DNA from: Pseudomonas benzenivorans
GTDB lineage: Bacteria; Pseudomonadota; Gammaproteobacteria; Pseudomonadales; Pseudomonadaceae
Direction: 5' to 3'
Assembly (NCBI RefSeq): GCF_900100495.1
Contig: NZ_FNCT01000001.1
Location: forward strand, 496,001-560,000
Length of the DNA stretch: 64,000 nt
Of the stretch, positions 3,485-62,744 are shown in pieces. Below the pieces are notes generated by a model, which saw only the letters and a program-made list of their open reading frames with translations, did not search any database and was not told the DNA's origin. The position numbers and the translations under genes are program-made. Numbering within the stretch: the stretch's first letter is position 1; each line of letters begins with the position of its first letter.

Positions 3485-3500
3485 GGGATGCAGGCAGAGC

Positions 3501-6590: not shown

Positions 6591-7294
6591 TGCTGCGCCT
6601 GCGCGATATCGGCAAGAGCCGCAACGGCTACCGCCTGCTGGTGCCGCGCCTGGACCTGCGCCCCGGCCAGCGCCTGGCCCTGGTGGGGCCGAGCGGCAGC
6701 GGCAAGAGCACCTTGCTCGACCTGCTGGCCCTGGTGCTCAGCCCGGACCCCGGCGGCACCCTGGAGCTGACCCGCGACGGCCGCATCAGCGACATCGCCG
6801 GGCTCTGGCGCCACGGCCGCCAGGACCTGCTGGCCGAGTTGCGCAGCCGCGCCATGGGCTATGTACTGCAGACCGGCGGCCTGCTCGGCTTTCTCGATGT
6901 ACGACGCAATATCGGCCTGTCGCGCGCCCTGCTGGGCATGGCCGAGGATGCCACGGTGCAGCGCCTGGCCGAGCGCCTGGAAATCGCCGACCAGCTGCAC
7001 AAGCTGCCCGCCGCGCTTTCGGTCGGCCAGCGCCAGCGGGTCAGCATCGCCCGGGCGCTGGCCCACTCACCGGCCATCGTGCTGGCCGACGAACCGACGG
7101 CCTCGCTCGATCCGCTGAATGCCGAGCGGGTCATGCAATTGCTGGTCGCCCAGGCCGAGGAGCAAGGTGCCTGCATCGTCGTGGCCACCCATGACGAGGC
7201 GCTGGCGCAGCGGGTCGGCCTGCAACTGCAGCGCCTGCAGGTGCAGCGCAGCGGCGCTGGCGGCGTGCTCGCGACCCTGCTGGAGGCCGGCTGA
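6590..7294 (+). CDS. tagT: TagT, ABC-transporter ATPase of the type VI signalling complex
   Basis: This 234-residue nucleotide-binding domain has Walker A GPSGSGKST near residues 33-41, the ABC signature LSVGQRQR and Walker B IVLADEPTASLD. It belongs to the LolD/MacB-like ATPases. In P. aeruginosa TagT and the permease TagS form an inner-membrane complex with ATPase activity that acts upstream of PpkA in the threonine-phosphorylation pathway; it is not known to transport a substrate. The start overlaps the ppkA stop (TGATG), and the stop overlaps the tagS start in the same way. Confidence 0.88.
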   Translation: MLRLRDIGKSRNGYRLLVPRLDLRPGQRLALVGPSGSGKSTLLDLLALVLSPDPGGTLELTRDGRISDIAGLWRHGRQDLLAELRSRAMGYVLQTGGLLGFLDVRRNIGLSRALLGMAEDATVQRLAERLEIADQLHKLPAALSVGQRQRVSIARALAHSPAIVLADEPTASLDPLNAERVMQLLVAQAEEQGACIVVATHDEALAQRVGLQLQRLQVQRSGAGGVLATLLEAG

Positions 7295-8490
7295 TGGGCC
7301 TGGCGCTGATGAGCCAGCTGGCCTGGCACGACTACCGCGCCGACGGCCGCCTGTCGGCCTGCGCGGTGTTGGCGCTGGTCGCGGTGCTGGCGCCGCTGCT
7401 GGTGCTGTTCGGCCTCAAGTTCGGCCTGATCACCAGCCTCACCGAGCGCCTGGAGCGCGACCCCGGGGTGCGCGAGATCGTGCCGCTGGGCGGTGGGCGC
7501 TTCAGTGCCGAGGCGATCGCCGAGCTGGCCGCCCGTGCCGACGTGGCCTTCGCCTTGCCGCGCACCCGGCAGATCGCCGCCACCGCCGAGCTGTCCGCCG
7601 GCGACAGGGGCGTGACGGTGGAGATGATTCCCACCGCCGCCGGCGATCCGCTGGTGGCGCCGGCGCTCCTGCCGTTGCCCGCGGACGGCGTGCTGCTCAG
7701 CCAGCGGGCGGCGGAGAAGCTCGGCGTGGAGGCCGGCGACCGCTTGAGCGCCGCCTTCGGCCGCCAGGTCGACGGCCGCCCGGAATACCAGCGCACCGAC
7801 TTGCTGGTGGTGGGTGTGCTGCCGCTCGGCGCCTTCCCCCGCGATGCCCTGTTCGCCTCGCTGAGCCTGCTCGAAGCCGCGGAGGATTACCGCGACGGTC
7901 TGGCGGTGCCGGCGCTGGGCTGGCCCGGGCGGAGCGAGGCGCAGCGCAGTGCGCGGGTCTATCCGGGCTTTCGCCTGTATGCCGCGGGCCTAGAGGATGT
8001 CGAGCGCCTGCGCCGCTATTTCGCCGCGCGCAACCTGGAGGTGGCCACCCAGGCGCAGGCCATCGCCCAGCTGCGCTCGCTCAGTCGCAACCTCAGCCTG
8101 GTGTTCTGGATCATCGCCAGCCTGGCGCTCGGCGGCGCCTTCGCGGCGATGACCGCCAGCGCCCTGGCCGCGGTCGAGCGCAAGCGCCGGGCCCTGTCGG
8201 TGCTGCGCCTGCTCGGCTTCTCGTCCACCGCGCTGGTCGCCTTCGTGGTGTTGCAGGCGCTCTACACCGGGGTGTTCGGCCTGATCCTGGCGTGGGGGCT
8301 GTATGGCGCGGCGGAGCTCGGGTTGAACCGCCTGTTCCAGCAGACGCCGGGCGAGTACGCCTGCAGCCTGCTGTTCGGGCATTACCTGCTGGCGCTGCTG
8401 GCGACCTTGCTGTGCAGCAGCCTGGCCGCCGCCTCCGGTGGCTGGCGGGCGGCGCGGATCGAAGCCTCGGAAGGATTGCGCGATGTCTAA
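7294..8490 (+). CDS. tagS: TagS, FtsX-like permease of the type VI signalling complex
   Basis: This 398-residue integral membrane protein has an N-terminal helix (about residues 22-42), a large periplasmic domain, and three C-terminal helices characteristic of FtsX/MacB-type permeases. It is the membrane partner of TagT, and the pair passes the surface signal to PpkA. The ATG overlaps the tagT stop. The end overlaps a possible tagR start at 8483, and the downstream sequence is disturbed by an inverted repeat, as described under tagR. Confidence 0.86.
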   Translation: MGLALMSQLAWHDYRADGRLSACAVLALVAVLAPLLVLFGLKFGLITSLTERLERDPGVREIVPLGGGRFSAEAIAELAARADVAFALPRTRQIAATAELSAGDRGVTVEMIPTAAGDPLVAPALLPLPADGVLLSQRAAEKLGVEAGDRLSAAFGRQVDGRPEYQRTDLLVVGVLPLGAFPRDALFASLSLLEAAEDYRDGLAVPALGWPGRSEAQRSARVYPGFRLYAAGLEDVERLRRYFAARNLEVATQAQAIAQLRSLSRNLSLVFWIIASLALGGAFAAMTASALAAVERKRRALSVLRLLGFSSTALVAFVVLQALYTGVFGLILAWGLYGAAELGLNRLFQQTPGEYACSLLFGHYLLALLATLLCSSLAAASGGWRAARIEASEGLRDV

Positions 8491-10486
8491 CAGACTGCCA
8501 AAAAATACGCATCCTGTAGGTTGGGCTGAGCACCACGAAGCCCAACAGGGCGACCTGGTCGGGCTTCGTTCCCCAGCACCAACCTATGTTTCGGCGTCGA
8601 TTGTCCCAGGGTTTGTCTGCTGCGTAATGCTGCTGATGGTCGGTTGCTCCGAGGCCGAGGAGCCACAGAGCCAGCGTGCCGACCCAGACGCCGCGTCCGC
8701 AGTGGTGCAGACGGTGCAGGAGGCGCAAGCGCCTCCGCCTCAGGAAGCGCCTGAAGTCCCAGAAGCTCAAGGGCCTCAAGAAGCCGAAGAGGCGCCGGCA
8801 GCCGCCGAGGCGCAACCCGCTCCGGCAGCGCAAGAGCCGGCACCCGCCAGCCCATCTGCCGCCGACAACCCCAAGCCGCTGGCCGACGATGTCAGCCTGC
8901 CGCTGCCCTGCGCGGGCGAGATGGTCTTCCGCCACGTCTACATCCTCGCCCGCGGCGCCCTCGACGATAAGGAGATCAGCCTCGGCCAGCCCTTCAGCGA
9001 GGGCGAGCCGGGCTACCAGCAGTCGTTCATTTCCGGCTACCGGCGCGACTACATCAATGGCCAGTTCCTCCTCGAGGATCTGCCGAGCGACTGGCAAGAG
9101 CGCATCGGCCCGGGCCTGCCCAAGGGCCGGGACGATGCGCTGCTCAAGCCCATGCTGTATTTCGTCGGCAAGTACGAGGTCACCGAGCGCCAGTACCAGC
9201 TGGTCATGGCCCAGGCCGCAGCCTTGGCCGGCGAGGGCGAGGCGCCGAGCTGCGACCAGCCGCCCGCGGGCATGCCGGCGCGGCGGCCCAAGGTCAACCT
9301 GTCGCGCTTCGAGGCCGAGCGCTTCGCCGCGGTCTACAGCGCCTGGCTGCTCAAGCACCACCGCGAGCGCCTGCCGATCAGCGGGCGCGGCGACAACCCC
9401 GAGGACGGCGGCGTGGGCTTCGTCCGCCTGCCCACCGAGGTCGAGTGGGAATTCGCCGCCCGCGGCGGCCATGCGGTCAGCCGCCAGGAGCTGGAAGGCC
9501 GGCTGTTCCCGCGCAAGGAGGAGGGCAGCGACGGCGACGGCCCGCTGGCCGACTGGGCGGTCTACACCCAGGTCGCTGGCGGCACGGGGCAAGGTGCGCG
9601 GCTGTTGCCGGTGGGCATGCGCAAGGCCAACCCGCTGGGGCTCTACGACGTGATCGGCAATGCCGCGGAAATGGTCCACGATCCGTTCCAGATGGTGCAT
9701 GCCGGGCGCCGCCAGGGCACCTACGGCGGTTTCGTGGTCAAGGGCGGCAACTACCTGGAAGGCGAGCTGACCCTGTTCACCGGGATGCGCCGCGAATACC
9801 CGCTGTTCACCGCGCAAGGCAGCGAGCAGCGCAACGAGACCACTGGCTTCCGCGTGGCCCTGGGCGCCTTGTCGGCCCCGCGCTCGCGCTACCAGGCGCT
9901 GTTCGAGCAGTGGCAACGGGAAGGTCGCCTGGCCGGGCTGACCGACGAGATCGCCGACGCCGACGACCCGACCCAATTGCTCGACAGCATCATCGCCGAC
10001 AGCCAAGACCCGGACCTGCAGGCCCGCCTGGCACTGGTCAACGAGGAGCTCAAGCGCAACGTCTCGCTGATCGCCCGGCAGCGCCAGGAAGCGGCCGCCA
10101 ACCTGATCCAGTCGGCGGCGCTGGTCGCCGAGACCGTCAGCAACTACAACATCCGCCTGACCAACCTGCAGAACAGCCTGACCAAGGCGCGCAAGGCCAA
10201 GGACCAGGCTGCGGTGCAGCTCTACCAGTCGGCCATCGCCAACGGGCGCACCGCCCTGGACGGCGCGGTGACGATCTACATCGACAACCTGGCCACCGGA
10301 ACGCGCTACTCCGATGCGGTGGTCCAGGCCCAGTTGCAGCGCACCCGCGAAGAGCTCAATCGCAACCCGGTGCTAGGCAAGAGTCTGGTCAAACGGGCTA
10401 CGCTGTTCGTACGCCACGTGGGCGAATACCGTGAGCAACGTAAAGCTGACCCGGCCGCGATCCTGAAGGAGCTGCTTGGCCCCTAG
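8483..10486 (+). CDS. tagR: TagR, formylglycine-generating-enzyme-like type VI signalling protein (5' end disturbed)
   Basis: The body is a sulfatase-modifying-factor/FGE-fold domain (about residues 220-480 from this start), with motifs VGKYEVTERQYQ, RLPTEVEWEFAARGG, NPLGLYDVIGNAAEM and GFRVALG. TagR proteins are periplasmic and promote PpkA activation. The start is unclear. The ATG at 8483 gives a 667-residue product whose first 45 residues are read through the inverted repeat; the ATG at 8627 gives only MLLMVGC before the body. A different-frame ATG at 8586 encodes MFRRRLSQGLSAA and then stops. Joined by a one-base shift to VMLLMVGCSEAEE, it would make an ideal lipoprotein signal peptide. 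A frameshift or sequencing error at about 8620-8627 is therefore likely. Confidence 0.78.
   Translation: MSNRLPKNTHPVGWAEHHEAQQGDLVGLRSPAPTYVSASIVPGFVCCVMLLMVGCSEAEEPQSQRADPDAASAVVQTVQEAQAPPPQEAPEVPEAQGPQEAEEAPAAAEAQPAPAAQEPAPASPSAADNPKPLADDVSLPLPCAGEMVFRHVYILARGALDDKEISLGQPFSEGEPGYQQSFISGYRRDYINGQFLLEDLPSDWQERIGPGLPKGRDDALLKPMLYFVGKYEVTERQYQLVMAQAAALAGEGEAPSCDQPPAGMPARRPKVNLSRFEAERFAAVYSAWLLKHHRERLPISGRGDNPEDGGVGFVRLPTEVEWEFAARGGHAVSRQELEGRLFPRKEEGSDGDGPLADWAVYTQVAGGTGQGARLLPVGMRKANPLGLYDVIGNAAEMVHDPFQMVHAGRRQGTYGGFVVKGGNYLEGELTLFTGMRREYPLFTAQGSEQRNETTGFRVALGALSAPRSRYQALFEQWQREGRLAGLTDEIADADDPTQLLDSIIADSQDPDLQARLALVNEELKRNVSLIARQRQEAAANLIQSAALVAETVSNYNIRLTNLQNSLTKARKAKDQAAVQLYQSAIANGRTALDGAVTIYIDNLATGTRYSDAVVQAQLQRTREELNRNPVLGKSLVKRATLFVRHVGEYREQRKADPAAILKELLGP
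8517..8586. repeat. REP/MITE-like imperfect inverted repeat at the tagS-tagR junction
   Basis: The left arm begins TAGGTTGGGCTGAGCACCA and ends CGAAGCCC. The right arm begins GGGCTTCG and ends CAGCACCAACCTA. The arms pair over most of about 27 bases with a loop of roughly 15-20 bases. This architecture and the TAGGTTGGGC motif resemble intergenic palindromes dispersed in Pseudomonas genomes, which I recall but cannot confirm here. It sits exactly where the signal-peptide-coding part of tagR should begin. Confidence 0.6.
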
Positions 10487-10568
10487 CAGCGCCTTCGGGC
10501 AGACGAGAGGGGCATACGGCGGATCAGCGCAGGATGGAATCAACACACTCAAGCATGAGAGAACGACC

Positions 10569-11447
10569 ATGGAATATCCTCACAGTCATTCACTGCTGCA
10601 CCCCACCTTGCTCTGCAGCGCCGCCTTTTCCGCGCTGTTGCTCGGCGGCTGCGCCAGCCTCGGCGGCGGCGTCAGCTCCAAGGTCGCGGCCACCACCAAG
10701 GCCAATTACTACCCGGCTTGCTACGAGCCGGTCAGCCAACTGCGCAGCTCCGATGCGGCGATGCAGAAGTCCGTCGCCACCGGCGCCATCGCCGGCGGCC
10801 TGCTCGGCGGCCTGGCCGGGGCCCTGAGCGGAGGCGACCATGCCGCGCGCAACACGCTGATCGGCGCGACCACCGGTGCCCTGGTCGGCGGCGCGGCCGG
10901 TTACTACAGCGAACGGCAGAAGCAGATCGCCGACGACAAGCAGCGGATCGCTTCCTATGGCGGCGACTTCGAACGCAGCAGCGAAGATCTGGATCGCAGC
11001 ATCGTCTACGCCAAGGCCGCCCAGGATTGCTACCAAGGCGAATTCGCCAAGCTGCAGGCCGCGCATCGGGCCAAGAGCATGAGCGACAGCGAGGGGCGTA
11101 GCCGATTTGCCGAAATCGTCAGCGGCCTGAAGGAAACCAATGCCTTGTTGGCTGCCGTGGATGGCCGCGCCGGCGAAGACATCAATACCTACACCCAGGC
11201 CTACGAAAAGGACCTGCAAGAGGTCGGCGTCGAGCGCCAGACCGTGGCCACGGCCGTCAGCAAACCGGTCGCCAAACCCAAAGCGGTCCCGCAGGAAGCC
11301 GTGGCCACCGAGCAGCAACTGCAAAAGGCGACTGCCAAGCGTACCGAAGCGCAGGAGGTAAGCAGCCGCGGCACCAGCATGGTCAGCAGCGCCTGCAACA
11401 ACCCGGATATCGGCGACTGGGGAGGCGACGCCTGCGGCAGCGTGTGA
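10569..11447 (+). CDS. tagQ: TagQ, outer-membrane lipoprotein of the type VI signalling cascade
   Basis: This 292-residue protein starts with a lipoprotein signal peptide: hydrophobic segment SAAFSALLLGGC with the lipobox cysteine near residue 28. A glycine-rich segment of the kind seen in the glycine-zipper fold follows (GAIAGGLLGGLAGALSGG and GATTGALVGGAAG), and then a charged helical C-terminal half. In P. aeruginosa TagQ is an outer-membrane lipoprotein that anchors TagR and begins the signalling pathway to PpkA. It is the last gene of the type VI unit. The 82-base gap after tagR is the largest within the cluster. Confidence 0.85.
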   Translation: MEYPHSHSLLHPTLLCSAAFSALLLGGCASLGGGVSSKVAATTKANYYPACYEPVSQLRSSDAAMQKSVATGAIAGGLLGGLAGALSGGDHAARNTLIGATTGALVGGAAGYYSERQKQIADDKQRIASYGGDFERSSEDLDRSIVYAKAAQDCYQGEFAKLQAAHRAKSMSDSEGRSRFAEIVSGLKETNALLAAVDGRAGEDINTYTQAYEKDLQEVGVERQTVATAVSKPVAKPKAVPQEAVATEQQLQKATAKRTEAQEVSSRGTSMVSSACNNPDIGDWGGDACGSV

Positions 11448-11712: not shown

Positions 11713-12192
11713 ATGGACAGATACTTGGTGCTGCCTTTCTGGCTTGCCGGGCAGCACTTCGCGGTGGCACTCGAGCATGTCGTGCGCGTGCTGCCCGCAC
11801 TATTGAGCACACCGCTGCCGGGGGCGCCGGCGACGGTCTGCGGATTGGTCAATGTGCAGGGCCAAATCCTACCGGTGGTCGACCTGGCGCGACGCTTCGA
11901 CTGGCCGTCGGCGCAGGTGACGCTGTGGCAACCCTTCATCTGGCTCAAGACCAGCCGGCGTGATCTGCTGTTGCCGGTCGCAACGGTCGAGGCGGTGCGC
12001 AGCTGCGCCGCAGAGGATTTTTCCCCGGCCCTCGATCCGCGCGTGCCGTCCAGCCTGCTGCAAGGCGTCCTGCGCACTGCCGAGGGCATGTTGCTGATCC
12101 AGGATGTCGAACAGGTGCTCTCCGATGCCGATGAGCAGTGCCTGGCCGCGGCGCTGGCGGAAAACGGAGGCGCGCCCGATGACGCGGATTGA
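11713..12192 (+). CDS. cheW: CheW-like coupling protein (first of two, WspB position)
   Basis: This 159-residue protein has the CheW beta-barrel pattern: LPFWLAGQHFAVALEHV, the loop TVCGLVNVQGQILPVVDL, and a C-terminal MLLIQDVEQVL segment. CheW proteins link receptors to the CheA kinase. It is the first gene of a seven-gene unit whose order (CheW, CheR, CheW, MCP, CheA, CheB, output) places it as the equivalent of WspB. The gene overlaps the following cheR by 14 bases. Sequence divergence between the two CheW proteins of this operon suggests distinct partners. Confidence 0.82.
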   Translation: MDRYLVLPFWLAGQHFAVALEHVVRVLPALLSTPLPGAPATVCGLVNVQGQILPVVDLARRFDWPSAQVTLWQPFIWLKTSRRDLLLPVATVEAVRSCAAEDFSPALDPRVPSSLLQGVLRTAEGMLLIQDVEQVLSDADEQCLAAALAENGGAPDDAD

Positions 12193-13714
12193 AGCGTCCT
12201 GTTCGCCGCGCGTGCTCGAGGTGCTGGCGCACAAGGTTCACCAGCACCTGGGCATCGACTTCTCGGCTGAGCGCCGGCCGGACCTGCTGCGGCGCCTGCA
12301 GCTGCTGGCCATGGAGCAGCACATCGAGGACTTCTCGGGGTGGCTGCAGGCCTTGGCTTTCGCCGACTGGGACGCAGCCCAAGTACAGGCGCTGATTCCC
12401 GCTTTTACCGTCGGCGAAACCTATTTCCGCCGCGACGCCGAGGCCCTCGACTGGCTGGCCCGGCAGCACCTCGGAGCGCTGTTGGCGCGCCGGCGCCTGG
12501 CCGGGCAACGCAGCCTGCGCCTGTGGAGTGCCGGTTGTTGCACCGGTGAGGAGGCCTACAGCCTGCTGTTTCTGCTCGATGAGCTGTTGGGTAGGGAAGC
12601 CGACACCTGGTCGTTGGAGTTGCTCGCCAGCGACATCAACACGGCTTTCCTCGCCCGGGCGGAGCAGGGCCTCTATGGCGCCAATGCCTTTCGCCGCAAC
12701 GACAGCGCTTTTCGCCGACGCCATTTCCAGGCCGAGGGCCGGTTGTGGCGCGTGCGGCCGGCCTGGCGCGGGCGTATCCGGTTTATCCCGTACAACCTGG
12801 CCGACGGCCTGCAACCCTGCCCGATGCAGGGTGCCGACCTGATCCTCTGCCGCAATGTGCTGATGTATTTCTCGCCGCCGCGCGCCGCTGCCGTGCTGCA
12901 TCGGCTGCTCGGCAGCCTGAGCCGCGACGGGCTGCTGCTGTTGAGCGCGGTCGAGGCCGGCATCGCCACCCAGGCCGGCTTCACGGGCACCTGGGCCGGT
13001 TGCAATTACGCCCTGGCCAGCGCTGCGCGAGGTGGCGTGCGGCCTGCCAGCGGTGCGCCCGCCGAGGCCGGCCCGGCGCCCGCTTGGGTGCCGCCCGGGG
13101 CGCCGGCCACGCGGGCGCGGAAGATCCCGCGCCCGCGGGCGGTGGTGCTCAGCCAGCCCGCTGAGCCCGCCGCTGCGCATGCCGCCGGCCCGGAGCAGCT
13201 CTGGCAGCAGGCGCAGCGGGACCTGAGTAGCGGGCATTCCCCTGCGGCCCGTGAAACCCTGCGGCGTTATCTGGCCTGTGCCGGCCTCAGCCACGCCCAG
13301 CAGCACCAGGCCTGCCTGCAGATGGCGCGTAGCTGGGCCGACCAGCAACAACTCGACGAGGCTCAGGATTGGCTGCAGCGAGCACTGGCGCTGGAGCCCG
13401 CATCGATGCCGGCCCATTGGCTGCAGGCCCAGCTCGCGCAGCAGAGGGGCGAGAACCAAGCCGCCCTGCTGGCACTGCAGCGCGTGCTCTACCTCGAGCC
13501 TGGCTTCATCCTCGGCTACTTCCTCCAGGCCCGCCTGCTGAGTGCGTCGGGCCGTGCGCGGGCCAGCGACAAGGCTTTGCGGGTCTGCCGGCAGTTGCTC
13601 GAGGAGCAGGCCGATGACGCCCCGCTGCCGCAAGGCGATGGCATGAGCTGCGCGCAATTGCTGCGCTTGTGCGAACAGTTGCTGGAGGAGCGAAGCGCAT
13701 GTCCGAGCCCCTGA
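12179..13714 (+). CDS. cheR: CheR-type receptor methyltransferase with TPR-like tail
   Basis: This 511-residue protein has an N-terminal CheR domain with AdoMet-binding features: FTVGETYFRRD, the LWSAGCCTGEEAYSL glycine-rich motif, LLASDIN, and LILCRNVLMYF. A Pro/Ala-rich linker (about residues 285-330) leads to a C-terminal region rich in TPR-like helices. The same architecture is found in WspC. It should methylate glutamates on the MCP of this operon using S-adenosylmethionine. The start overlaps the previous cheW, and the end overlaps the next cheW by 16 bases. A longer upstream frame in the cheW gene is not needed. Confidence 0.88.
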   Translation: MTRIEASCSPRVLEVLAHKVHQHLGIDFSAERRPDLLRRLQLLAMEQHIEDFSGWLQALAFADWDAAQVQALIPAFTVGETYFRRDAEALDWLARQHLGALLARRRLAGQRSLRLWSAGCCTGEEAYSLLFLLDELLGREADTWSLELLASDINTAFLARAEQGLYGANAFRRNDSAFRRRHFQAEGRLWRVRPAWRGRIRFIPYNLADGLQPCPMQGADLILCRNVLMYFSPPRAAAVLHRLLGSLSRDGLLLLSAVEAGIATQAGFTGTWAGCNYALASAARGGVRPASGAPAEAGPAPAWVPPGAPATRARKIPRPRAVVLSQPAEPAAAHAAGPEQLWQQAQRDLSSGHSPAARETLRRYLACAGLSHAQQHQACLQMARSWADQQQLDEAQDWLQRALALEPASMPAHWLQAQLAQQRGENQAALLALQRVLYLEPGFILGYFLQARLLSASGRARASDKALRVCRQLLEEQADDAPLPQGDGMSCAQLLRLCEQLLEERSACPSP

Positions 13715-14307
13715 ACGATGCAGCCCGCTGGACACAGTTGCACGAACGGCTGGCCGAGTTCGAACGCCGCCTGTCAGAGGGCTTCGCCATTGCGCCGGAT
13801 GAGTCGGCGGCGCGCCTGCGCGAGCGTACCCGGCAATGGGCCGGCACGCCCCAGGCGGAGGATCGCCAGGGGGAACTGGAGGTGCTGACCTTCAGCCTCA
13901 GCAATGAGCTGTATGCCATCGGCAGCGAGCATGTCGCCCAGGTGCTGCCGTTGAGCCAGTACACGCCGCTGCCGAGCACGCCGGGTTACGTGCTGGGCAT
14001 CGTCAATGTGCGCGGGCGCATCGTCTCGGTAGTGGATCTGCGGGTGCTGTTCGAGCTGCCGATCGTCGGGCTTTCCGAACGCAGCTTTCTGCTCGTCCTG
14101 CAGAGCGCGGACATGGAGTTCGGCCTGTTGATCGACCGCGTGCTGGGGGTCGCGCAAATCCGCCGCGAGGCCTTGCAGAGCAGCCTGGCCAACCTGTCTG
14201 GGGTGCGGGCGAAGTATCTGCTTGGGGTTACCCGCGAACAATGGACGGTGCTGGATGGTGCACGGCTGCTGGGCGATTCGAGTCTGTGCGTGATGGCCGA
14301 GGATTAG
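13699..14307 (+). CDS. cheW: CheW-like coupling protein (second, WspD position)
   Basis: This 202-residue protein has about 70 extra N-terminal residues before a canonical CheW domain ([52 protein letters not shown]-like region and VLDGARLL). The extended N-terminus matches WspD-type couplers. It should bridge the MCP and the hybrid CheA encoded next. The start lies inside the end of cheR, and a 34-base gap containing a GGGAGAGGGA-type ribosome-binding sequence precedes the MCP. Confidence 0.85.
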
Positions 14308-14341: not shown

Positions 14342-15979
14342 ATGATGGGCAAGGTCTTGCAGTTCAACATCGGCAGCAAGCTGATCATGGCGTTCGTGGT
14401 ACTGATCCTGGGGTTTGGCGGCCTGCTCTTCACCACCCTGGAGCAATTCGTCGGCCTGCAGGAAAGCGAAGAGCTGCAATTCAGGCGCAACTATGAGCGG
14501 ATCTCTGCGGTGAAGGAGCTGCGCATCAATATCGCGGCGCAGCGCAACGACCTGCTGCTGGCCATAAGCGACGGAACCGTGAATCAGCTGGAAGAGCGCG
14601 AGGAGGAAATTCGCCGTCGCAGCGAGGAAAACGACCGGCTCATGCAACGCCTGCGCGCGGCGGCGAGCGATGACCAGGAGGCCGGTGATTTGCTCGAACA
14701 GTTCATCGCCGTGCGTACCAGCCTGGCGCAGAGCCGGACGAACCAGTTGCAGCTGATCCGCAGTGGCCAGTTGGACGAGGCGCGGCAGTTGAGCGGGGGG
14801 CTGCAGCTGGAGCGGATGAACAAGATCCATGAGTTGGGCCTGCAACTGGTCAAGTTGACCGAGCGCCGCATCGGCGAAGCACTGGCCAACTCGCGTCAGG
14901 TGCTGGAGACCCTGCGCGAACGCATCCTCAACCTGAGCCTGCTGCTGGTGGGGGGCATCATCGTTCTGGCCTGGCTGCTCAGCCGGCATATCGCGGCGCC
15001 ACTGGCGCGCCTGACCGGTTTTGCCGAGCAGATCGGCCGCGGCGAGATTCCCAGCGGCCTGGCCAACAGTTCACGACAGGACGAGGTGGGCCGGCTGACC
15101 CAGGCGTTCGTCGACATGAGCCAGTACCTGCGCGATCTGGTGCAGGAAATGAACGAAGGCATCTCGGTGCTGGCGTCCTCCAGCGAGGAGATCCTTGCCG
15201 CCACCACCCAGGTGGCGGCAAGCACCCAGGAAACCGCCACCGCCATCAGCGAAATCGCCACCACGGTGGAAGAGGTCAAGCAGACCGCGGTGCTCGCCGG
15301 TAACAAGTCGCAAACGGTCGCCGAGAGTACCGAGCGCACCCGCCAGGTGGCGCAGAGCGGCCGCCAGGCGGTGGATGAAGCGCTCAAGGGCATGGGGCAG
15401 ATTCGCGAACAGATGCAGGCGGTGGCGGAAAGCATCATGCGCCTGGGCGAGCAGAGCCAGACCATCGGCGAGATCGTCGCCTCGGTCGGCGACCTGGCCG
15501 AGCAGTCCAACCTGCTCGGGGTCAACGCCTCGATCGAGGCGGTCAAGGCCGGCGAGGCCGGCAAGGGTTTCTCGGTGGTGGCCCAGGAGGTCAAGGTCCT
15601 GGCCGACCAGTCGAAACAGGCCACCGCGCAGGTGCGCGGGATTCTCGGCGAAATCCAGAAGGCCATGACCAAGGCGGTACTGCTGGCCGAGCAGGGCAGC
15701 AAGACGGTGGAAATCGGCTACGAGCGAGCCCAGAGCAGCGGCGAGGCGATCCGTGCCCTGAGCAGCAGTATCGAGGAGTCAAGCGAAGTGGCCGTGCAGA
15801 TCGCCGCCACCAGTCAGCAGCAGATGATCGGCATGGATCAGATCGCGACGGCCATGGAGAGCATTCGCCAGGCCAGCCAGGACAATGTCGGCGGTAGCCG
15901 CCAGGTCGACCAGGCCGCCCGCAACCTGCATCAGCTGGGCCTCAAGCTCAAGGGCCTGGCGGCCCGTTTCAAGCTGTGA
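14342..15979 (+). CDS. Methyl-accepting chemotaxis protein (WspA position)
   Basis: This 545-residue receptor has a first membrane helix at about residues 12-34 ([18 protein letters not shown]), a periplasmic four-helix-bundle-type ligand region, a second helix around 197-216 ([14 protein letters not shown]), a HAMP linker and a cytoplasmic signalling domain. The hairpin tip reads [21 protein letters not shown] rather than the flagellar-type [19 protein letters not shown], as in receptors feeding alternative (non-flagellar) cellular functions. It should control the hybrid CheA kinase of this operon. The stimulus is unknown. A strong purine-rich ribosome-binding site precedes two adjacent ATG codons. 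Confidence 0.9.
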
Positions 15980-15986
15980 GCCCGTC

Positions 15987-18185
15987 ATGAGCCTGGATCG
16001 CGAAACGCTGCGGCAACACCTGATGGCCAGTTTTCGGGTGGAGGCGGACGAGCGCCTGGGGGTGCTGGCCGACGGCCTGGCCAACTGGCGTGAGGCAACG
16101 GCTTCGGACGCGTCCATCGAGTCGCTATTCCGCGAGGTTCACAGTCTCAAGGGCGCCGCGCGGGCGGTCGGTTTGGCGCAGATCGCGCAGCTTTGTCATG
16201 CCTGGGAGAGCCTCTTGGGGGCCGTACGCGCCGGTACGCTGGAGCTGACCCCGGAGCGGGTCGAGCTGTGCCGTTATGCCCTGCGCGTGGTGCAGCAGTT
16301 GCATACCGGGCAGGCGGCGGAAGTCCACGAGCAGCAGCGGCTGATCGATGACCTGGAGGCGGCCGCTTGCGGGGCGCCGGTAAACCTGCCCGAGCGTCCA
16401 GCGCCTTTGCCGCCGGCGCCACAGGAGCCCGGCACGGTGCGGGTCGCGACGCGGCGCCTGGATGCGCTGCTGTTCCAGAGCGAGACCCTGTTGCAGCACA
16501 AGCTCGAGGCCCAGGCCCATGCCCGGCGCTTGGGCGAACATGTGCTGACCTTCGACCCCCAACGCGGTCGCCGGCTGCTCGCCGGCGGCAGCCTGAAGCG
16601 CTTGCGTGAAAGCGTACAAGCGCTACCCGAGGCAAATCGGGATGCCTTCAGGGCGCTGCTCGATTACCTGGACTGGAGCCAGGCGCAGATGGATCGCCTG
16701 CACTTCGCGGCGAGCCACCTGGAAAAAGCCGGCAAACACCTGGCGCAGGGTTTGGCGCAACTCTCCGAAACCCTCGCCGGAGAATTACAGAGCGCACTCC
16801 TGCTGGCCGGCAGCAGCCTGCTCGAAGGGTTGCCGGCGATGGTCCAGGACCTCGCCAGCCAGGCCGGCAAGCGGGTGGCGCTGCAAGTGCGCGGAGCCAG
16901 CCTGCAAGTCGACAAGCGCATTCTCGACGAACTGCGCACCCCGCTGACCCACCTGCTGCGCAATGCCGTGGACCATGGCCTGGAAACGTCGGGACAGCGC
17001 GCCGCCGGCGGCAAGTCGGAGGTCGGCCAGTTGCAGGTGGAACTGCTGCAGGAGTCGGCGGACCGTTTCGAGCTGCGCGTGCGCGACGATGGCCGCGGCC
17101 TGGCCATCGCGCAATTGAAGAGCAAGGCCGTGGCCGCCGGGCTGCTGACCGAGGAGCAGGCCGAGGCACTGGCCGATGCGGAAGCCGGCAAGCTGATCTT
17201 CGCCTCCGGGCTGTCCACCAGTGCGCTGATCACCGATCTCTCCGGGCGCGGCCTGGGCATGGCCATCGTCCAGGAGGCGGTCGAACGGATCGGCGGACGC
17301 ATCGAACTGGAGACCAGTCCGGGGCAGGGCACCTGCATTCACCTGCACCTGCCGCTTAGCCTGTCGACCTTTCGCGCGGTGATCGTGCGCAACGCCGAGC
17401 GCATCTTCGCGGTACCGGCGCTGGCGGTGGAACGCTGCCTGCGGTTGCCGGCCGGCGCGGTGAAGAATCTGGAAAACCGGCCGTCCCTGGTGGTGCAAGA
17501 ACAGGTCCTGCCGGTCTGGTCGCTGGCCGACGTGCTCGGTCTCGGCGACCAGTTGCGGGGCGAAGGCCATCTGACCCTGCTGCTGCTCAAGGTGCGCGGC
17601 GAGCGCTTCGTCCTGCTGGTGGAAGAACTGCTCGGCGACCAGGAAATCACCGTCAAGAGCCTCGGCCGCCAATTGCTGCGGGTGCGCAATCTGCTGGGCG
17701 CGACGGTCCTCGGCGACGGCCAGTTGGTGCCCATTCTGCACCCCGGCGACCTCTACCGCAGCGCCCTGGCCGCCACCGCCAGCGTGTTCGCCGAAACCAC
17801 CCAGGACAGCCAGGCGCAGCGCGCCCAGCGGCTCTTGATCGCCGAGGACTCCTTCACCTCGCGCGGCCTGCTCAAGGCCATTCTCGAAGGGGCCGGCTAT
17901 CAGGTGGCCACGGCGAACGATGGTCTGGAAGCCTGGAACGCGCTGAAGCAGGGGCCATTCGACCTGCTGGTGTCCGATGTGGAGATGCCGCGCATGGATG
18001 GTTTCAGCCTGACCAGCCGCATTCGCGCCGACCGCGAACTGGCCACCTTGCCGGTGGTGCTGGTCACCGCCCTGCACTCCGCGGAGGACCGTGCGCGCGG
18101 CCTGGAGGCCGGTGCCAATGCCTATCTGGTGAAAAGCGGTTTCGAGCAGGACAGCCTGCTCGATGCCATTCGGCGTCTGATCTGA
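15987..18185 (+). CDS. cheA: Hybrid chemotaxis histidine kinase CheA with C-terminal receiver (WspE-like)
   Basis: This 732-residue protein has an N-terminal HPt domain with phospho-acceptor His52 in VHSLKGAARAVG. It lacks an obvious P2 domain, then has dimerisation, HATPase (HLLRNAVDHGLE, RDDGRGLAIA, GRGLGMAIV), CheW-like and receiver domains. The receiver carries AEDS and phospho-acceptor Asp664 in LLVSDVEMP. WspE has the same HPt-kinase-CheW-REC layout. It should phosphorylate CheB and the output protein downstream. The ATG at 15987 follows the MCP stop by eight bases; an upstream extension through the MCP gene is rejected. Confidence 0.9.
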   Translation: MSLDRETLRQHLMASFRVEADERLGVLADGLANWREATASDASIESLFREVHSLKGAARAVGLAQIAQLCHAWESLLGAVRAGTLELTPERVELCRYALRVVQQLHTGQAAEVHEQQRLIDDLEAAACGAPVNLPERPAPLPPAPQEPGTVRVATRRLDALLFQSETLLQHKLEAQAHARRLGEHVLTFDPQRGRRLLAGGSLKRLRESVQALPEANRDAFRALLDYLDWSQAQMDRLHFAASHLEKAGKHLAQGLAQLSETLAGELQSALLLAGSSLLEGLPAMVQDLASQAGKRVALQVRGASLQVDKRILDELRTPLTHLLRNAVDHGLETSGQRAAGGKSEVGQLQVELLQESADRFELRVRDDGRGLAIAQLKSKAVAAGLLTEEQAEALADAEAGKLIFASGLSTSALITDLSGRGLGMAIVQEAVERIGGRIELETSPGQGTCIHLHLPLSLSTFRAVIVRNAERIFAVPALAVERCLRLPAGAVKNLENRPSLVVQEQVLPVWSLADVLGLGDQLRGEGHLTLLLLKVRGERFVLLVEELLGDQEITVKSLGRQLLRVRNLLGATVLGDGQLVPILHPGDLYRSALAATASVFAETTQDSQAQRAQRLLIAEDSFTSRGLLKAILEGAGYQVATANDGLEAWNALKQGPFDLLVSDVEMPRMDGFSLTSRIRADRELATLPVVLVTALHSAEDRARGLEAGANAYLVKSGFEQDSLLDAIRRLI

Positions 18186-18202: not shown

Positions 18203-19303
18203 GTGCGCGTGTTGATCGTTGACGACTCACCGGTACTGCGCCTGCTGCTGCGTGCCGTGCTGGAAAACGCGGGCTATGCGGTGCACGAGGCCGACAGTGG
18301 CGAACAGGCCCTGACACTGCTGCAGACCTACACCCCCGACATAGTGACCATGGACGTGCATATGCCAGGCATCGACGGTTACGAGACCACCGCACGCATC
18401 CTCGAACGCTACGCCTTGCCGGTGGTGGTGCTGACTGCCAGCGCCAACGTCCACGACACGGCGACCGCGATGCGCGCCTTGGCCGCCGGCGCCCTGGCTA
18501 TAGTGGAAAAGCCGCGCGGCCTCTCGGCCCCCGACTTCGACACGCGCATCGACGAGTTGCTGCGGACCCTGCGCAGCATGTCCCAGGTCAAGGTCGTGCG
18601 GCGCCACCGGCCGGCTTTGAGCAGTCCGGCGAGCGGCACGGAGTCCACGCTCGAGCTGGTCGAGCAAACGGCCGCTGCCGCTCCGCAGGTCGTCGCCATC
18701 GCGGCCTCGGCCGGCGGTCCGGCGGCGCTGAAGAGCCTGTTGCAGAGTCTCCGGCCACCCCAGCCCTGGGTGCTGATCCTGGCCCAACACATTGCCGCCG
18801 GCTTCATGCCGAGCTTCGGCAACTGGCTGGCGAGCGTTTGCGCGCTGCCGGTGCAGATCGTCGAAGACGCCCAGGCACTGCTGCCAGGCAGGCTCTACCT
18901 GCCTCCCGACGGCACCCAGCTGGGCATCACCGCGACCCTGCGGGTGCGTCTGGAGGCCACCAGTGCGGAGCAGCGCTTCTCCCCCTCGGCCGACTACCTG
19001 TTCCACGCGGTCGCCCGCCAGTTCGGCAAGCGCGCCATCGGCATCCAGCTCTCGGGAATGGGCCGCGACGGTGCCGAAGGCTTGGCCGAGCTTCGCCGCA
19101 GGGGCGCCTTGACTCTGGTGCAGGAGCCCGGCAGCGCACTCATCGATTCCATGCCGCGCGCCGCCATCGCATTGCAGGCCGCCTGCCAGGTGTTGCCGCC
19201 TGAGGCTATCGCCGCGGTACTCAACTCGATCGCTGTACGGATCGCTTCACCGCAAGTCGTGGCAGGAGGGAGTCAGTCATGTACGCCACCGCAGAAATCT
19301 TGA
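18203..19303 (+). CDS. cheB: Chemotaxis methylesterase/response regulator CheB (WspF-like)
   Basis: This 366-residue protein has an N-terminal receiver (VDDSP, phospho-acceptor Asp51 in TMDVHMPG, lysine in VEKPRG) joined to a C-terminal methylesterase domain. The catalytic triad is visible: Ser169 in AASAGGP, His196 in AQHIAAGF, Asp289 in GMGRDGAEG. It should remove methyl groups from the operon's MCP and so adapt or damp signalling; loss of the equivalent WspF locks the Wsp system on in other pseudomonads. The start is GTG. The 3' end overlaps the output gene by 25 bases, where a strong AGGAGGG site drives the next start. Confidence 0.9.
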   Translation: MRVLIVDDSPVLRLLLRAVLENAGYAVHEADSGEQALTLLQTYTPDIVTMDVHMPGIDGYETTARILERYALPVVVLTASANVHDTATAMRALAAGALAIVEKPRGLSAPDFDTRIDELLRTLRSMSQVKVVRRHRPALSSPASGTESTLELVEQTAAAAPQVVAIAASAGGPAALKSLLQSLRPPQPWVLILAQHIAAGFMPSFGNWLASVCALPVQIVEDAQALLPGRLYLPPDGTQLGITATLRVRLEATSAEQRFSPSADYLFHAVARQFGKRAIGIQLSGMGRDGAEGLAELRRRGALTLVQEPGSALIDSMPRAAIALQAACQVLPPEAIAAVLNSIAVRIASPQVVAGGSQSCTPPQKS

Positions 19304-22300
19304 TCGTCGAGGACAGCCCGACCCAGGCGTCCGAACTGCAGTATCTGCTCGAAGCGGCAGGTTGCCGGGCGCAGATCGCGCGCAACGGCGTCGAGGCCCT
19401 GGCGATGGTCGCAAAAAAACGCCCAACCATCGTCATCAGCGACATCGTGATGCCCGAAATGGACGGCTACGAACTGTGCCGGCAGCTGAAGGGCAACCCT
19501 GGCACCGCCGACATCCCGGTGATCCTGGTGACCGCCCTGGCCAATGCGCGGGACGTGGTGCATGGCTTGGCCTCCGGAGCGGACAACTTCATCGTCAAGC
19601 CCTACGATGAAAAGTACCTGATGTCACGCATCCGCTACTTCCTGGTGAATCTCGAGCTGCGCACCCATGAACGGGTGCAGATGGGGGTCGAGGTGGTCCT
19701 CGAAGGCGAGCGCCACTTCATCACCGCCGGCCGCCAGCAGATTCTCGATCTGCTGATTTCCACCTATGAGCAGGGCGTGCGCCTGAACCATGAATTGCAG
19801 GCCAAGCACGATGAGCTGGCACGCAGCAATTCGCTGCTCAACAGCCTGTTCCACTTCACCAGCGGCCTGACCGACGCCAAGACCGAGCAGCATGTGGTCG
19901 ACGCGGCGTTGCGCCGCATCCTGGAGTTTCCCGAGGCGGTCGGCGCCTGGCTGCTGATGGCCGATGCCGGGCAGTCGCATGAGCCGGTACGGCTGGCCGG
20001 AGCCCGCGGGCACGGCCGGGGTTATGCCGCCGAACACCTGCATGCCTGCATCGGCAACTGCCCGTGCCTGCATGCCTGGTTCAGCGACCGCTTGGCCACG
20101 CCGAGCAATGTCGCCAGCTGCCCGGCACTGGCCGAGCAGGCCGGCGAGGGCCGGCATGCGAGTATCCCGCTGCTGCTCGGCAGCGAGATCATCGGCATGC
20201 TCAACGTCGTGCGCCGCCATGCGCAGAGCTGGCCGGACGAATCGCTGAATGCCCTGGCCTCGCTCGGTAGGCAACTGGCCATGGCCCTGGGTCGGGCGCG
20301 CCTGTTCGAAAGCATGGAGCAGCTGGTGGCGCAGCGCACCCTGGACCTGGCGCAGAGCGAAGCGCTGCTGCGCAAGATTCTCGACAGCCTGCCGGTCGGC
20401 GTGTTCGTCACCGACCGCAATGGCCGGCTGATCATGAGCAACCCCGAGAGCAGTCTGATCTGGGGCGGTGCGCATCCCGCCGAACTGGCCGGCTACAGCC
20501 AGTACCAGGGGTTCTGGGCCGAGACCAGCGCGCCGTTGCAGGCCAAGGACTGGCCGTTGGCGCGGGCCGTGCAGCAAGGCAAGGCCACGCGCAATAAAGT
20601 GATCGACATCGAAACCTTCGACGGCGCGAGCAAGACCATTCTCAACTCGGCGGTACCCTTTCTCGACGAGCACGGCGTACTGCAAGGCGCCATCGCGGTG
20701 ATCCAGGATGTCAGCGAGCAGCGGCGCCGCGACCTGGACATCCGCATCCGCACCCGCGCGGTGGAGGCCAGCGTCAACGCCATCATCATCACCGACAACG
20801 AGCAGGCGGATCAGCCGATCATCTACGTCAACCCGGCCTTCGAGCGCATCACCGGCTACCACAGCGAGGAGGTAATAGGGCTCAACTGCCGCTTCCTGCA
20901 GGGCAGCAAGCGGGACCAGCCGGCGCTCGAGCACATCCGCCGGGCGCTGCACAACCAGGAGGAGGGCAGCGCGGTGCTGCGCAACTACCGCAAGGACGGA
21001 TCGGAGTTCTGGAACGACCTCCGGGTCGCGCCGGTGGTCAACGACCGCGGCAAGGTCAGCCATTTCGTCGGCATCCTCCACGACATCACCGAAGCCAAGC
21101 GCTACCAGGATGAACTGGAGCACCAGGCCAACCACGACGGCCTGACCGGACTGCCGAACCGCAACCTGCTCAACGACCGCATCCGCCAGGCCATCGCCTT
21201 CGCCAGCCGCAGCCAGGGCCAGTTCACCCTGGTGTTCATGGACCTGGATCACTTCAAGGTGATCAACGACAGTCTCGGCCACAATGCCGGCGACCAGCTG
21301 CTGGTCCAGGTAACGGAGCGCCTGCTGGACTGCGCCCGGGACATCGATACCGTGGCGCGCCTGGGCGGCGACGAGTTCGTCATCCTGCTGGCCGACAGCG
21401 GCTCGTTCATCGAGCGGGTAGGCTGGCTGGAGCGCCTCAAGCAACGGGTCGCCGAGCCCCTGCTGCTCGATGGCCAGGAGCTGGTGGTCAGCTGCAGCCT
21501 GGGCTTCTGCTGCTACCCCGAGGATGGCCTCGACGTCAGCACCCTGCTGCGCAATGCCGATACGGCCATGTACCAGGCCAAGCACCAGGGGCGCAACCGC
21601 ATCTGCGCCTTCACCCCGACGATGAATGAGCAGATGCAGCGACGGCTGCTGCTGGAACGGGATATCCGCCATGCCCTGCAGAACAACGAGTTCTGCCTGG
21701 TCTACCAGCCGCAACTGGATCTGCTGAGCGGCCGTTTGTGCGGTTTCGAGGCCCTGGTGCGCTGGCAGCGGCCCGGCAAGATGGTCGCGCCGGACGAGTT
21801 CATCCCGCTGGCCGAGGAGACCGGGCAGATTGTCGCTATCGACTTCTATGTGTTCGACGCGGTGTGTCGACAGTTGCGCCTGTGGGAGGATGCGATCCAG
21901 GGCCTGAGCATCGCGGTAAATTTCTCCGCCATCAGCTTCATGGAACACAATTTCATCGAGCGCGTGCAGCAGACGATGGAACGCTATGGGGTGGCGCCGA
22001 GCCAGCTCAAGCTGGAGATGACCGAAACCGCGCTGATGACCCATGCCGACGCAGTCCTGGTCAAGATGAACAGGCTCAGCGCCTTGGGCATCCGTTTCTC
22101 CATCGATGACTTCGGCACCGGCTATTCGTCCCTGGGCTATCTGAAGCGTTTCCCGTTCAGCGAGCTGAAGATCGACCGCAGCTTCGTCACCGATGTGCAC
22201 CTGGACTCCGATAGCGCCTCGCTGGTGCGCTCGATGATCTCCATCAGCCACAACATGGGCATCAAGGCGATCGCCGAGGGGGTGGAAACCGCCGAGCAGC

Positions 22301-22863
22301 TCGGTTTCCTGCGGCGCGCCGGCTGCGACGAGCTGCAAGGCTATTACTTTTCGCCGCCCCTACCGCCCAAGGCTTGCCTGGCCTTGCTCCAGGGCAGTTC
22401 GAGCCTGTCCCTGCCGGCCAATATCCTCGACGAGGAGGAAAATTACCTGCTCCTGGTCGACGACGAACAGGGCATCCTCAATGCGCTGCAGCGCGAGCTG
22501 CGCCTGGAGAACTACCGGATCCTGACCGCCCGCAGCAGCGCCGAGGCACTGCCCCTGCTGGCACGCCACCCGGTGGGGGTGGTGCTCACCGATATGCGCC
22601 TGGCCGACATGCATGGCGTGGAATTCCTGCGCCGACTCAGGACTCTCTATCCAGACATCATCCGCATGGTGCTGAGCGGCTCCACCGAGGTCAGCAGCAT
22701 CCTCAAGGCCGTCAACGAGGGGGTGATCTATCGCTTCATCACCAAGCCTTGGCAAGTCGACGACCTGCGCAACCAGTTGCGCGAAGCCTTCATGCAACGC
22801 GAGCTGCTGCGCGAGAACAAACGCATGCGCGAACAGTTGATGGACGCAACCGCGCAGCGCTGA
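19279..22863 (+). CDS. REC-GAF-PAS-LOV-GGDEF-EAL-REC cyclic-di-GMP output protein
   Basis: This 1194-residue protein ends the chemosensory operon. Domains in order: receiver (phospho-acceptor Asp55 in VISDIVMPEMDG), GAF (about 195-350), PAS (365-480), LOV-type PAS (490-610), GGDEF (620-785), EAL (800-1045) and a second receiver (Asp1061/1062, phospho-acceptor Asp1105). The LOV domain carries GLNCRFLQG with Cys537 and the two flavin-contacting asparagines Asn569 and Asn579 in NYRKDGSEFWN. The usual signalling glutamine is Leu600 (FVGIL). GGDEF (696-700) with an upstream RDID inhibitory site and EAL (824-826) with DDFGTGYSS are intact, so both cyclase and phosphodiesterase activities are possible. 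It occupies the WspR position but is far more complex. Function is inferred from domains. Confidence 0.9.
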   Translation: MYATAEILIVEDSPTQASELQYLLEAAGCRAQIARNGVEALAMVAKKRPTIVISDIVMPEMDGYELCRQLKGNPGTADIPVILVTALANARDVVHGLASGADNFIVKPYDEKYLMSRIRYFLVNLELRTHERVQMGVEVVLEGERHFITAGRQQILDLLISTYEQGVRLNHELQAKHDELARSNSLLNSLFHFTSGLTDAKTEQHVVDAALRRILEFPEAVGAWLLMADAGQSHEPVRLAGARGHGRGYAAEHLHACIGNCPCLHAWFSDRLATPSNVASCPALAEQAGEGRHASIPLLLGSEIIGMLNVVRRHAQSWPDESLNALASLGRQLAMALGRARLFESMEQLVAQRTLDLAQSEALLRKILDSLPVGVFVTDRNGRLIMSNPESSLIWGGAHPAELAGYSQYQGFWAETSAPLQAKDWPLARAVQQGKATRNKVIDIETFDGASKTILNSAVPFLDEHGVLQGAIAVIQDVSEQRRRDLDIRIRTRAVEASVNAIIITDNEQADQPIIYVNPAFERITGYHSEEVIGLNCRFLQGSKRDQPALEHIRRALHNQEEGSAVLRNYRKDGSEFWNDLRVAPVVNDRGKVSHFVGILHDITEAKRYQDELEHQANHDGLTGLPNRNLLNDRIRQAIAFASRSQGQFTLVFMDLDHFKVINDSLGHNAGDQLLVQVTERLLDCARDIDTVARLGGDEFVILLADSGSFIERVGWLERLKQRVAEPLLLDGQELVVSCSLGFCCYPEDGLDVSTLLRNADTAMYQAKHQGRNRICAFTPTMNEQMQRRLLLERDIRHALQNNEFCLVYQPQLDLLSGRLCGFEALVRWQRPGKMVAPDEFIPLAEETGQIVAIDFYVFDAVCRQLRLWEDAIQGLSIAVNFSAISFMEHNFIERVQQTMERYGVAPSQLKLEMTETALMTHADAVLVKMNRLSALGIRFSIDDFGTGYSSLGYLKRFPFSELKIDRSFVTDVHLDSDSASLVRSMISISHNMGIKAIAEGVETAEQLGFLRRAGCDELQGYYFSPPLPPKACLALLQGSSSLSLPANILDEEENYLLLVDDEQGILNALQRELRLENYRILTARSSAEALPLLARHPVGVVLTDMRLADMHGVEFLRRLRTLYPDIIRMVLSGSTEVSSILKAVNEGVIYRFITKPWQVDDLRNQLREAFMQRELLRENKRMREQLMDATAQR

Positions 22864-62603: not shown

Positions 62604-62615
62604 AACCCCGCCTCC

Positions 62616-62639
62616 AAGGCCAACCCTCGGGTTGGCCTT
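62616..62639 (+). terminator. Rho-independent-type hairpin after the DUF1329 gene
   Basis: AAGGCCAACC and GGTTGGCCTT form a perfect 10-bp stem around a 4-base loop 12 bases after the stop codon, followed by GTTCCTC. Position and stem strength fit a transcription terminator; the T-run is poor. Confidence 0.75.
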
Positions 62640-62744
62640 GTTCCTCAATCGCTACCGGCAAGGCCTGATCCACAACGGCGACGTCAATCGCTGCCGCTCG
62701 GGGCCAGGCCATGTGCCGCTGTAACCCCACAAGGATTCGCATTG

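Follow-up and report, generated by a model that had tools for sequence, protein, structure and literature searches.

A LOV-containing c-di-GMP enzyme as the probable output protein of a non-Wsp chemosensory array in Pseudomonas benzenivorans

The stretch of the Pseudomonas benzenivorans genome analysed here (the window; 64,000 nucleotides, assembly GCF_900100495.1, contig NZ_FNCT01000001.1, positions 496,001 to 560,000 of the forward strand) carries a chemosensory array operon whose last gene encodes a multidomain protein, hereafter the output protein, that combines a LOV domain with domains for the synthesis and hydrolysis of cyclic di-GMP (c-di-GMP). Pfam searches on the open reading frames (ORFs) of the window give seven genes on the same strand (+) in the order CheW-CheR-CheW-MCP-CheA:REC-CheB-output, with gaps of at most 34 nucleotides between ORFs, several of them negative. 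A first CheW (11713..12192, Pfam CheW E 4.4e-23) is followed by a CheR methyltransferase (12179..13714, Pfam CheR 1e-34), a second CheW of uncertain start (13669..14307, Pfam CheW 1.4e-28), a methyl-accepting receptor with 4HB_MCP, HAMP and MCP signal domains by Pfam (14342..15979), a CheA with Hpt, HATPase, CheW and C-terminal receiver (REC) domains, assigned by Pfam, motifs and its place in a tree (15987..18185), a CheB methylesterase with a receiver, assigned by Pfam and the motifs SAGGP, QHI and GMGRDG (18203..19303), and the output protein of 1194 residues (19279..22863). The longest CheR ORF begins at 12104, and a GGAGG precedes the start at 12179; the C-terminus of CheR gives weak TPR_1 and TPR_2 matches (E 1e-4 to 6e-4), under the Pfam cut-offs. 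The start of CheA is likewise uncertain, its longest ORF beginning at 15885, and the protein retains the H-box HSLKG together with N and G boxes; we take these motifs, and those of CheB, to have their usual meanings. The output ORF overlaps the CheB ORF by 25 nucleotides and has a Shine-Dalgarno-like GGAGG upstream, and a scan for promoters and terminators gave 0 and 2 sites, with no excess over shuffled sequences.

An earlier note on this DNA had read 19279-22863 (+) as REC-GAF-PAS-LOV-GGDEF-EAL-REC, and both the ORF, which is open over this interval, and the Pfam domain search agree with that architecture. A first receiver, REC1 (residues 7-119, 19297..19635), is followed by a linker that has no Pfam match (residues 120-200, 19636..19878), a GAF domain of the GAF_2 type (residues 201-337, 19879..20289), a PAS domain (residues 368-483, 20380..20727), the LOV domain (Pfam PAS_9/PAS, residues 493-605, 20755..21093), a GGDEF domain (residues 617-774, 21127..21600), an EAL domain (residues 794-1027, 21658..22359) and, as a second Pfam Response_reg stretch whose bounds were set from motifs and matches, REC2 (about residues 1055-1170, 22441..22788). 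The intact GGDEF motif with its RxxD inhibitory site (R687/D690) and the intact EAL were found where the note had placed them. The GGDEF, inhibitory-site and conserved EAL catalytic motifs are those expected of a bifunctional enzyme throughout the family, except in the orthologue at locus L011 (L numbers denote the loci compared, G numbers genomes), where SGDEF is found.

Residue conservation was counted over 15 distinct sequences, namely the window protein and 14 orthologues, with L198 as a sixteenth for the LOV residues, while mean identities to the window protein were taken from an 11-row orthologue alignment. The most conserved stretch is the linker (mean identity 0.935, with 81.5% of its positions invariant), followed by REC1 and LOV (0.81 each), GGDEF (0.77), EAL (0.72), PAS (0.69), REC2 (0.67) and GAF (0.65). 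The linker is predicted to form a beta-hairpin (residues 136-149) and a long helix (residues 152-204); a Foldseek search with REC1 and the linker returned mainly receivers, the first being that of a Syntrophus kinase, and gave the linker no name. In REC1, residues E11, D12, D55, T85 and K107 are conserved in all 15 sequences. The phospho-acceptor aspartates that the earlier note had seen in both receivers are indeed present in the window, and for REC1 the observation extends to the whole family, but all four phosphorylation residues checked in REC2 are kept in just 8 of the 15 sequences. With at least one of them lost in the other 7, two working receivers were rejected as a common trait; these losses weaken a reading of the two receivers as two phospho-inputs, and a mainly structural role of REC2 is probable.

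Judged by sequence and predicted fold, the LOV domain is genuine, as the earlier note had proposed, and is not a chance occurrence of NCRFLQ, a possibility ruled out by structure-database matches, Foldseek and shuffling alike. When a 119-residue stretch was compared with the PDB by phmmer, the top match was PF5-LOV (7r5n, E 1e-34), and the best 60 of 171 rows also included phototropins, aureochromes and blue-light kinases. An AlphaFold model of the domain, built from a 30-row alignment, has a mean pLDDT of 90, and all 50 rows listed by Foldseek for this model are titled LOV or blue-light photoreceptor, with Meiothermus MrLOVe first. NCRFLQ never appeared when the output protein was shuffled 20000 times. 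The adduct cysteine C537 (20887..20889, also present in L198) and the asparagines N569 and N579 lie where the note had put them and, like N536, R538, Q541 and R554, occur in 15 of 15 distinct sequences. The Arg/Asn/Asn flavin contacts fall at C+17, C+32 and C+42, the standard spacing, and we take them to be equivalent to those of AsLOV2.

What the earlier note had missed is that the family lacks the active-site glutamine of LOV domains: its position in the FVGIQ strand (C+63), which is glutamine in the three PDB alignments inspected, is occupied by leucine, L600 (21076..21078), in all 16 sequences. According to Dietler et al., this glutamine is not strictly required in LOV receptors, about 350 natural LOV domains are free of it, with Leu and Ile predominating as replacements, and such domains keep signalling, often in attenuated form; one of them, in a LOV-GGDEF fragment from M. 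loti, is blue-light-repressed and light-regulated in cells (PMC9098866). Light sensing is therefore not disproved by the loss of the glutamine, and the strength of the response is uncertain. A non-redundant tally of adduct-cysteine and glutamine positions in LOV-like matches, biased towards the output-protein family as the loci were partly collected through it, gave 28 Cys/Gln, 15 Cys/Leu (12 of them from this family), 1 Cys/Thr, 1 Leu/Gln and 3 with neither residue. A relative with the LOV-GGDEF-EAL arrangement at L143 (G393) has its adduct cysteine replaced by leucine and the glutamine kept. In a midpoint-rooted tree of 45 LOV/PAS-GGDEF-EAL rows, the output-protein family forms one clade of 15 rows (support 100/100), next to which stands a clade of 15 LOV-GGDEF-EAL proteins of the same order; Gln is present in 13 of these and Leu in 2. 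The Leu-bearing L002 and L136 nest among Gln-bearing relatives, so either Leu arose repeatedly or there was a return to Gln, and a single origin of Leu is unsupported. Two of the relatives belong to the same genome as the array: L002 (G000 C42, ORF 106-3672), a REC-PAS-PAS-LOV-GGDEF-EAL-REC paralogue with Leu for the glutamine and an SGDEF motif, and L003 (G000 C21:177299-178702), a LOV-GGDEF-EAL relative that keeps the glutamine and has one in-frame stop within the match.

The array had also been described as Wsp-like, with its output at the position of WspR. It does share with Wsp (WspA-F, WspR) a receptor, CheW, CheR, a CheA with a receiver, CheB and a receiver-containing c-di-GMP output that directly follows CheB, but the gene order is different: Wsp is arranged as receptor-CheW-CheR-CheW-CheA-CheB-output, whereas here the receptor lies between the second CheW and CheA. 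A second array in the P. benzenivorans genome (L199) runs, by BLAST, from a receptor through CheR, CheA and CheB to a REC-GGDEF protein, the last with best PDB matches to 3i5a (E 3.5e-154) and 3bre (E 4.2e-150), which we take to be WspR structures, 3i5b and 3i5c carrying the WspR name. In a tree of CheA proteins (36 of 51 rows after removal of near-duplicates, with a long-branch attraction warning from the tool), LOV arrays contribute 14 CheAs, which group in a single clade, joined with 100/99 support by 8 of the 9 CheAs from arrays that end in a kinase, and the WspE of P. benzenivorans lies outside. WspH or WspR is apparently the output of all Wsp systems (PMC8552884), and the REC-GAF-PAS-LOV-GGDEF-EAL-REC protein of this array is neither WspH nor WspR, which is a REC-GGDEF protein. 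Membership in Wsp was rejected on the CheA tree, the gene order and the separate WspR in the same genome, and the kinship that the earlier note had suggested is not supported.

How far WspR and the array coexist was examined in 249 Pseudomonas genomes. The output protein occurs in 12 of them (a smaller draw of 95 genomes has it in 4), P. benzenivorans counted, and 5 of 80 loci retained from a public genome collection carry it as well, with 71-82% identity, all in Pseudomonas and including P. tumuqii and P. subflava. With a threshold of E <= 1e-90, WspR is found in 224 of the 249 genomes: in 3 of the 12 with the array vs 221 of the 237 without it. Both are absent from 16 genomes. The Fisher p value is 4e-8 without correction for shared ancestry, and the pattern could therefore reflect one or two losses in a clade. 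The scarcity of WspR where the array occurs, the same component types and the receiver-bearing CheA would be expected if the array were a Wsp member or recent derivative in which WspR had been exchanged for a larger enzyme; against this stand the position of WspE elsewhere in the CheA tree, the WspR encoded separately in the same genome, the different gene order and the match of the N-terminal half of the output protein to kinase outputs of another array lineage, so that we regard such a derivation as highly improbable.

This other lineage includes arrays in which the same seven gene types occur in the same order, as in L031, L032, L037, L195 and L196, other phyla being represented among them. 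The order at L040 agrees, with the first CheW matched by another CheW query, while the receptor and the second CheW are swapped in L035 and L024 is truncated by a contig end. The outputs of the lineage are mostly histidine kinases, some with GAF or PAS: Pfam identified kinases in 7 of 7 outputs bearing the REC1-linker module (REC-linker), as well as in the outputs of L195, L196 and L197. Directly after the REC-linker kinase of L196, an ORF at 1151-3397 (-) matches a receiver and, at 40%, a Ser/Thr kinase, and could be another output. At E <= 1e-50 the REC-linker was found in 25 of 398 genomes drawn from the phylum, 3 of the 25 being Pseudomonas. The 55 REC-linker matches yielded 30 loci, of which 27 lie outside Pseudomonas; in these 27 a kinase is present in 25 (by BLAST, with Pfam on a subset), the REC-linker adjoins CheB in 14 and is fused to it in 7 (21 in total), and, within the stretches retrieved, LOV, GGDEF or EAL occurs in the same ORF as the REC-linker in none. 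The two loci without a kinase, L176 and L189, have a CheB-REC protein and a REC-PAS-SpoIIE protein. The REC-linker is thus the usual output adaptor of the lineage as examined.

Both halves of the output protein have relatives of their own. Residues 4-358 match the L024 locus from Ignavibacteriae (42% over the best segment, 53% over the REC-linker), whose second output ORF is a REC-GAF-kinase, GAF being present also in other kinases of the lineage (L031), and residues 474-1180 are 45% identical to the PAS-LOV-GGDEF-EAL-REC paralogue L002. The Pseudomonas array has the CheA clade, the gene order and the REC-hairpin-helix linker after CheB in common with the lineage, and lacks its histidine kinase output. 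Judged from this kinship, the Pseudomonas output is a swap, in which one small group of Pseudomonas species kept REC-linker-GAF and has a PAS-LOV-GGDEF-EAL-REC half in place of the kinase half. As REC-EAL response regulators adjoin two other gammaproteobacterial kinase arrays (L195 and L197), the c-di-GMP connection of the lineage may predate the fusion. A plasmid search gave one relative, L164 on plasmid pMIT1002 of Alteromonas macleodii, with a REC-linker kinase output and an adjacent REC-EAL regulator. The ORF sizes of L197 (G831) are the same as those of L164, with equal or nearly equal scores, and the contig of L197 (88,747 bases) could be a plasmid as well.

On the observed gene order, domain architecture, conserved residues and kinship of CheA and of both output halves, we consider it probable that the protein serves as the output of an array distinct from Wsp and of the 'alternative cellular function' (ACF) type, that the kinase half of this output was replaced by a LOV-bearing c-di-GMP half, and that the protein works as a light-responsive relay. 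A multidomain response regulator, by which ACF clusters are recognised (PMC3447774), is present in the cluster. A narrower scheme, in which phosphorylation by the array and blue light converge in one glutamine-free LOV enzyme that makes and breaks c-di-GMP, and in which the array has taken the place of Wsp in a largely WspR-less group of Pseudomonas, is offered as a tentative possibility. Flavin binding, photochemistry, phosphotransfer and bifunctional activity are all predicted. In the reading that we consider probable, the membrane receptor would control CheA, which would phosphorylate REC1; by way of the conserved linker, with its hairpin and helix, and then of the sensor domains, the resulting change would reach GGDEF and EAL, which are paired. 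Under blue light, a flavin-cysteine adduct at C537 would bias that helical relay even though the usual glutamine is missing, and REC1 phosphorylation and the LOV adduct would together shift the balance between synthesis and hydrolysis of c-di-GMP. The direction of the light effect is a guess from analogy: among three LOV c-di-GMP enzymes, the M. loti LOV-GGDEF fragment (PMC9098866) and SL2 (PMC8846402) are reported to have a lower output in blue light, and LadC is reported as a light-activated cyclase (PMC10396304).

Several observations weigh against this interpretation. Two PAS-type domains, the GAF domain and REC2 sit within the relay without an assigned input; by analogy with other glutamine-free LOV domains, L600 may attenuate or abolish the light output; the in-operon receptor is absent from 2 of 6 orthologous arrays examined (L009 and L198); the ninth kinase-array CheA, that of L197, does not join the clade, has a branch of about 5 changes per site and is not placeable; 8 of the 27 kinase-lineage loci reach the end of the retrieved stretch; and the LOV-GGDEF-EAL part of the family lies on a long branch (0.82), because of which the donor of the C-terminal half is not placed. 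The orthologous array at L011 has two receptor genes in its operon.

Two further explanations keep the array and the output swap, and are thus partly compatible with a light-responsive relay, while giving the LOV domain another role. In one of them the domain is a sensor of flavin redox state or oxygen and light is incidental, as the invariance of L600 and the suggested descent of LOV domains from redox flavoproteins (PMC9098866) would allow. The GAF domain, for which the earlier note had inferred a ligand, bears on this as well. All 15 sequences share its residues C257, C261, C263 and C281 despite the weak conservation of the domain overall, and H293 follows, so that residues 257-293 (20047-20157) form a motif CX3CXCX17C...H; this invariance alone is weak evidence, because 11 of the 13 remaining cysteines of the window protein are invariant too. 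A better sign is a cysteine spacing common to another phylum: among 65 REC-linker ORFs, a set that includes repeat copies of one gene, CXC-17-C-loop-His occurs in 23, of which 22 belong to the output-protein family, where the full motif is found, and 1 is the REC-GAF-kinase of L024 (Ignavibacteriae), with CXCX17C...H. The site suggests a putative metal, Fe-S or thiol/redox switch, and CSK, the one case to which the papers listed in a search for GAF Fe-S sensors led, is a published GAF Fe-S sensor with a different ligand set (PMC6949291). On the other hand, none of the 16 sequences has lost the adduct cysteine or the NCRFLQ motif around it, and a pure redox flavin sensor needs no C537; we hold this explanation to be unlikely as an alternative to light sensing.

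According to the other explanation, to which we give slightly less weight still, there is no light coupling at all: the LOV domain would be a PAS for structure or dimerisation, and the output would be set by phosphorylated REC1 alone. That the linker is the most conserved stretch and REC1 among the next would fit such a design, as would the often weaker light output of glutamine-less variants (PMC9098866). It is harder to reconcile with a LOV domain that is about as conserved as REC1, above GAF, PAS, GGDEF, EAL and REC2, and whose flavin-contact residues are invariant.

A type VI secretion block lies upstream of the array (49-11447), in which TssM and TagF models were matched, TagQ scored above the cut-off of NF041250, and a Ser/Thr kinase with a weak vWA match, an ABC ATPase with an adjoining ORF and an FGE-sulfatase protein were found; the names PpkA and TagT/S/R are presumably applicable, given the gene order. 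The block was rejected as part of the array system on the ground that no upstream match at E <= 1e-8 was found in six orthologous loci (L008-L012 and L198), over about 0.3 kb of upstream stretch in L011 and about 3.8-5.5 kb in the other five. At 62604-63998 there is a PAS-MCP receptor that reaches past the end of the window, and an NCRFLQ-type motif was not found in the stretch read.

Some similarities can be seen with known systems. In the Che3 system of R. centenum, the target of CheA3 phosphorylation is REC1 of CheS3, the output kinase (PMC3868531). This resembles the proposed working of the present array, in which a receiver-bearing CheA would act on the N-terminal receiver of a multidomain output; the output of Che3 is a histidine kinase rather than a LOV cyclase/phosphodiesterase. 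ACF clusters with CheR-TPR have multidomain response regulators, about 40% of them with kinase modules, and among ACF response regulators some 20 carry GGDEF, one EAL and two the pair, with PAS or GAF present in some; the main text of this survey does not contain the word LOV (PMC3447774). Cluster 2 of Halomonas is a Wsp-like array with a GGDEF output that has several phosphorelay domains, but this output is Hpt-REC-REC-GGDEF, the gene order differs, and EAL is absent from the main text, in which LOV was not searched for (PMC5907407). Glutamine-deficient LOV receptors include one on a GGDEF-EAL protein, from M. loti, which has Met where the array output has Leu and is presented in the passages on it without mention of a chemosensory array (PMC9098866). 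LOV domains on c-di-GMP enzymes do act in light, as reported for S. elongatus SL2, a LOV-GGDEF-EAL protein (PMC8846402), and for LadC, also a LOV-controlled c-di-GMP enzyme (PMC10396304), and the accounts of these two, as far as consulted, do not describe them as outputs of chemosensory arrays. Among the papers listed in literature searches, judged by title and the start of the abstract, none dealt with a LOV-bearing chemosensory array output. As GGDEF-EAL array outputs are already in print (PMC3447774), the LOV-bearing array output is the new element, within the literature so searched.

The REC-hairpin-helix module stands ahead of kinases in several phyla and ahead of a c-di-GMP enzyme here, which makes a natural pair for studying the function of the module. 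The family also offers a LOV domain that is fixed and evolutionarily stable without its glutamine, on an enzyme that has GGDEF as well as EAL and in which phosphorylation would serve as an independent second input and an internal control. If light and the array signal do converge, photobiology would be tied to the motile-sessile decision in non-photosynthetic bacteria, and the output protein could allow a cell to take light into account together with an external signal in deciding whether to move or to settle.

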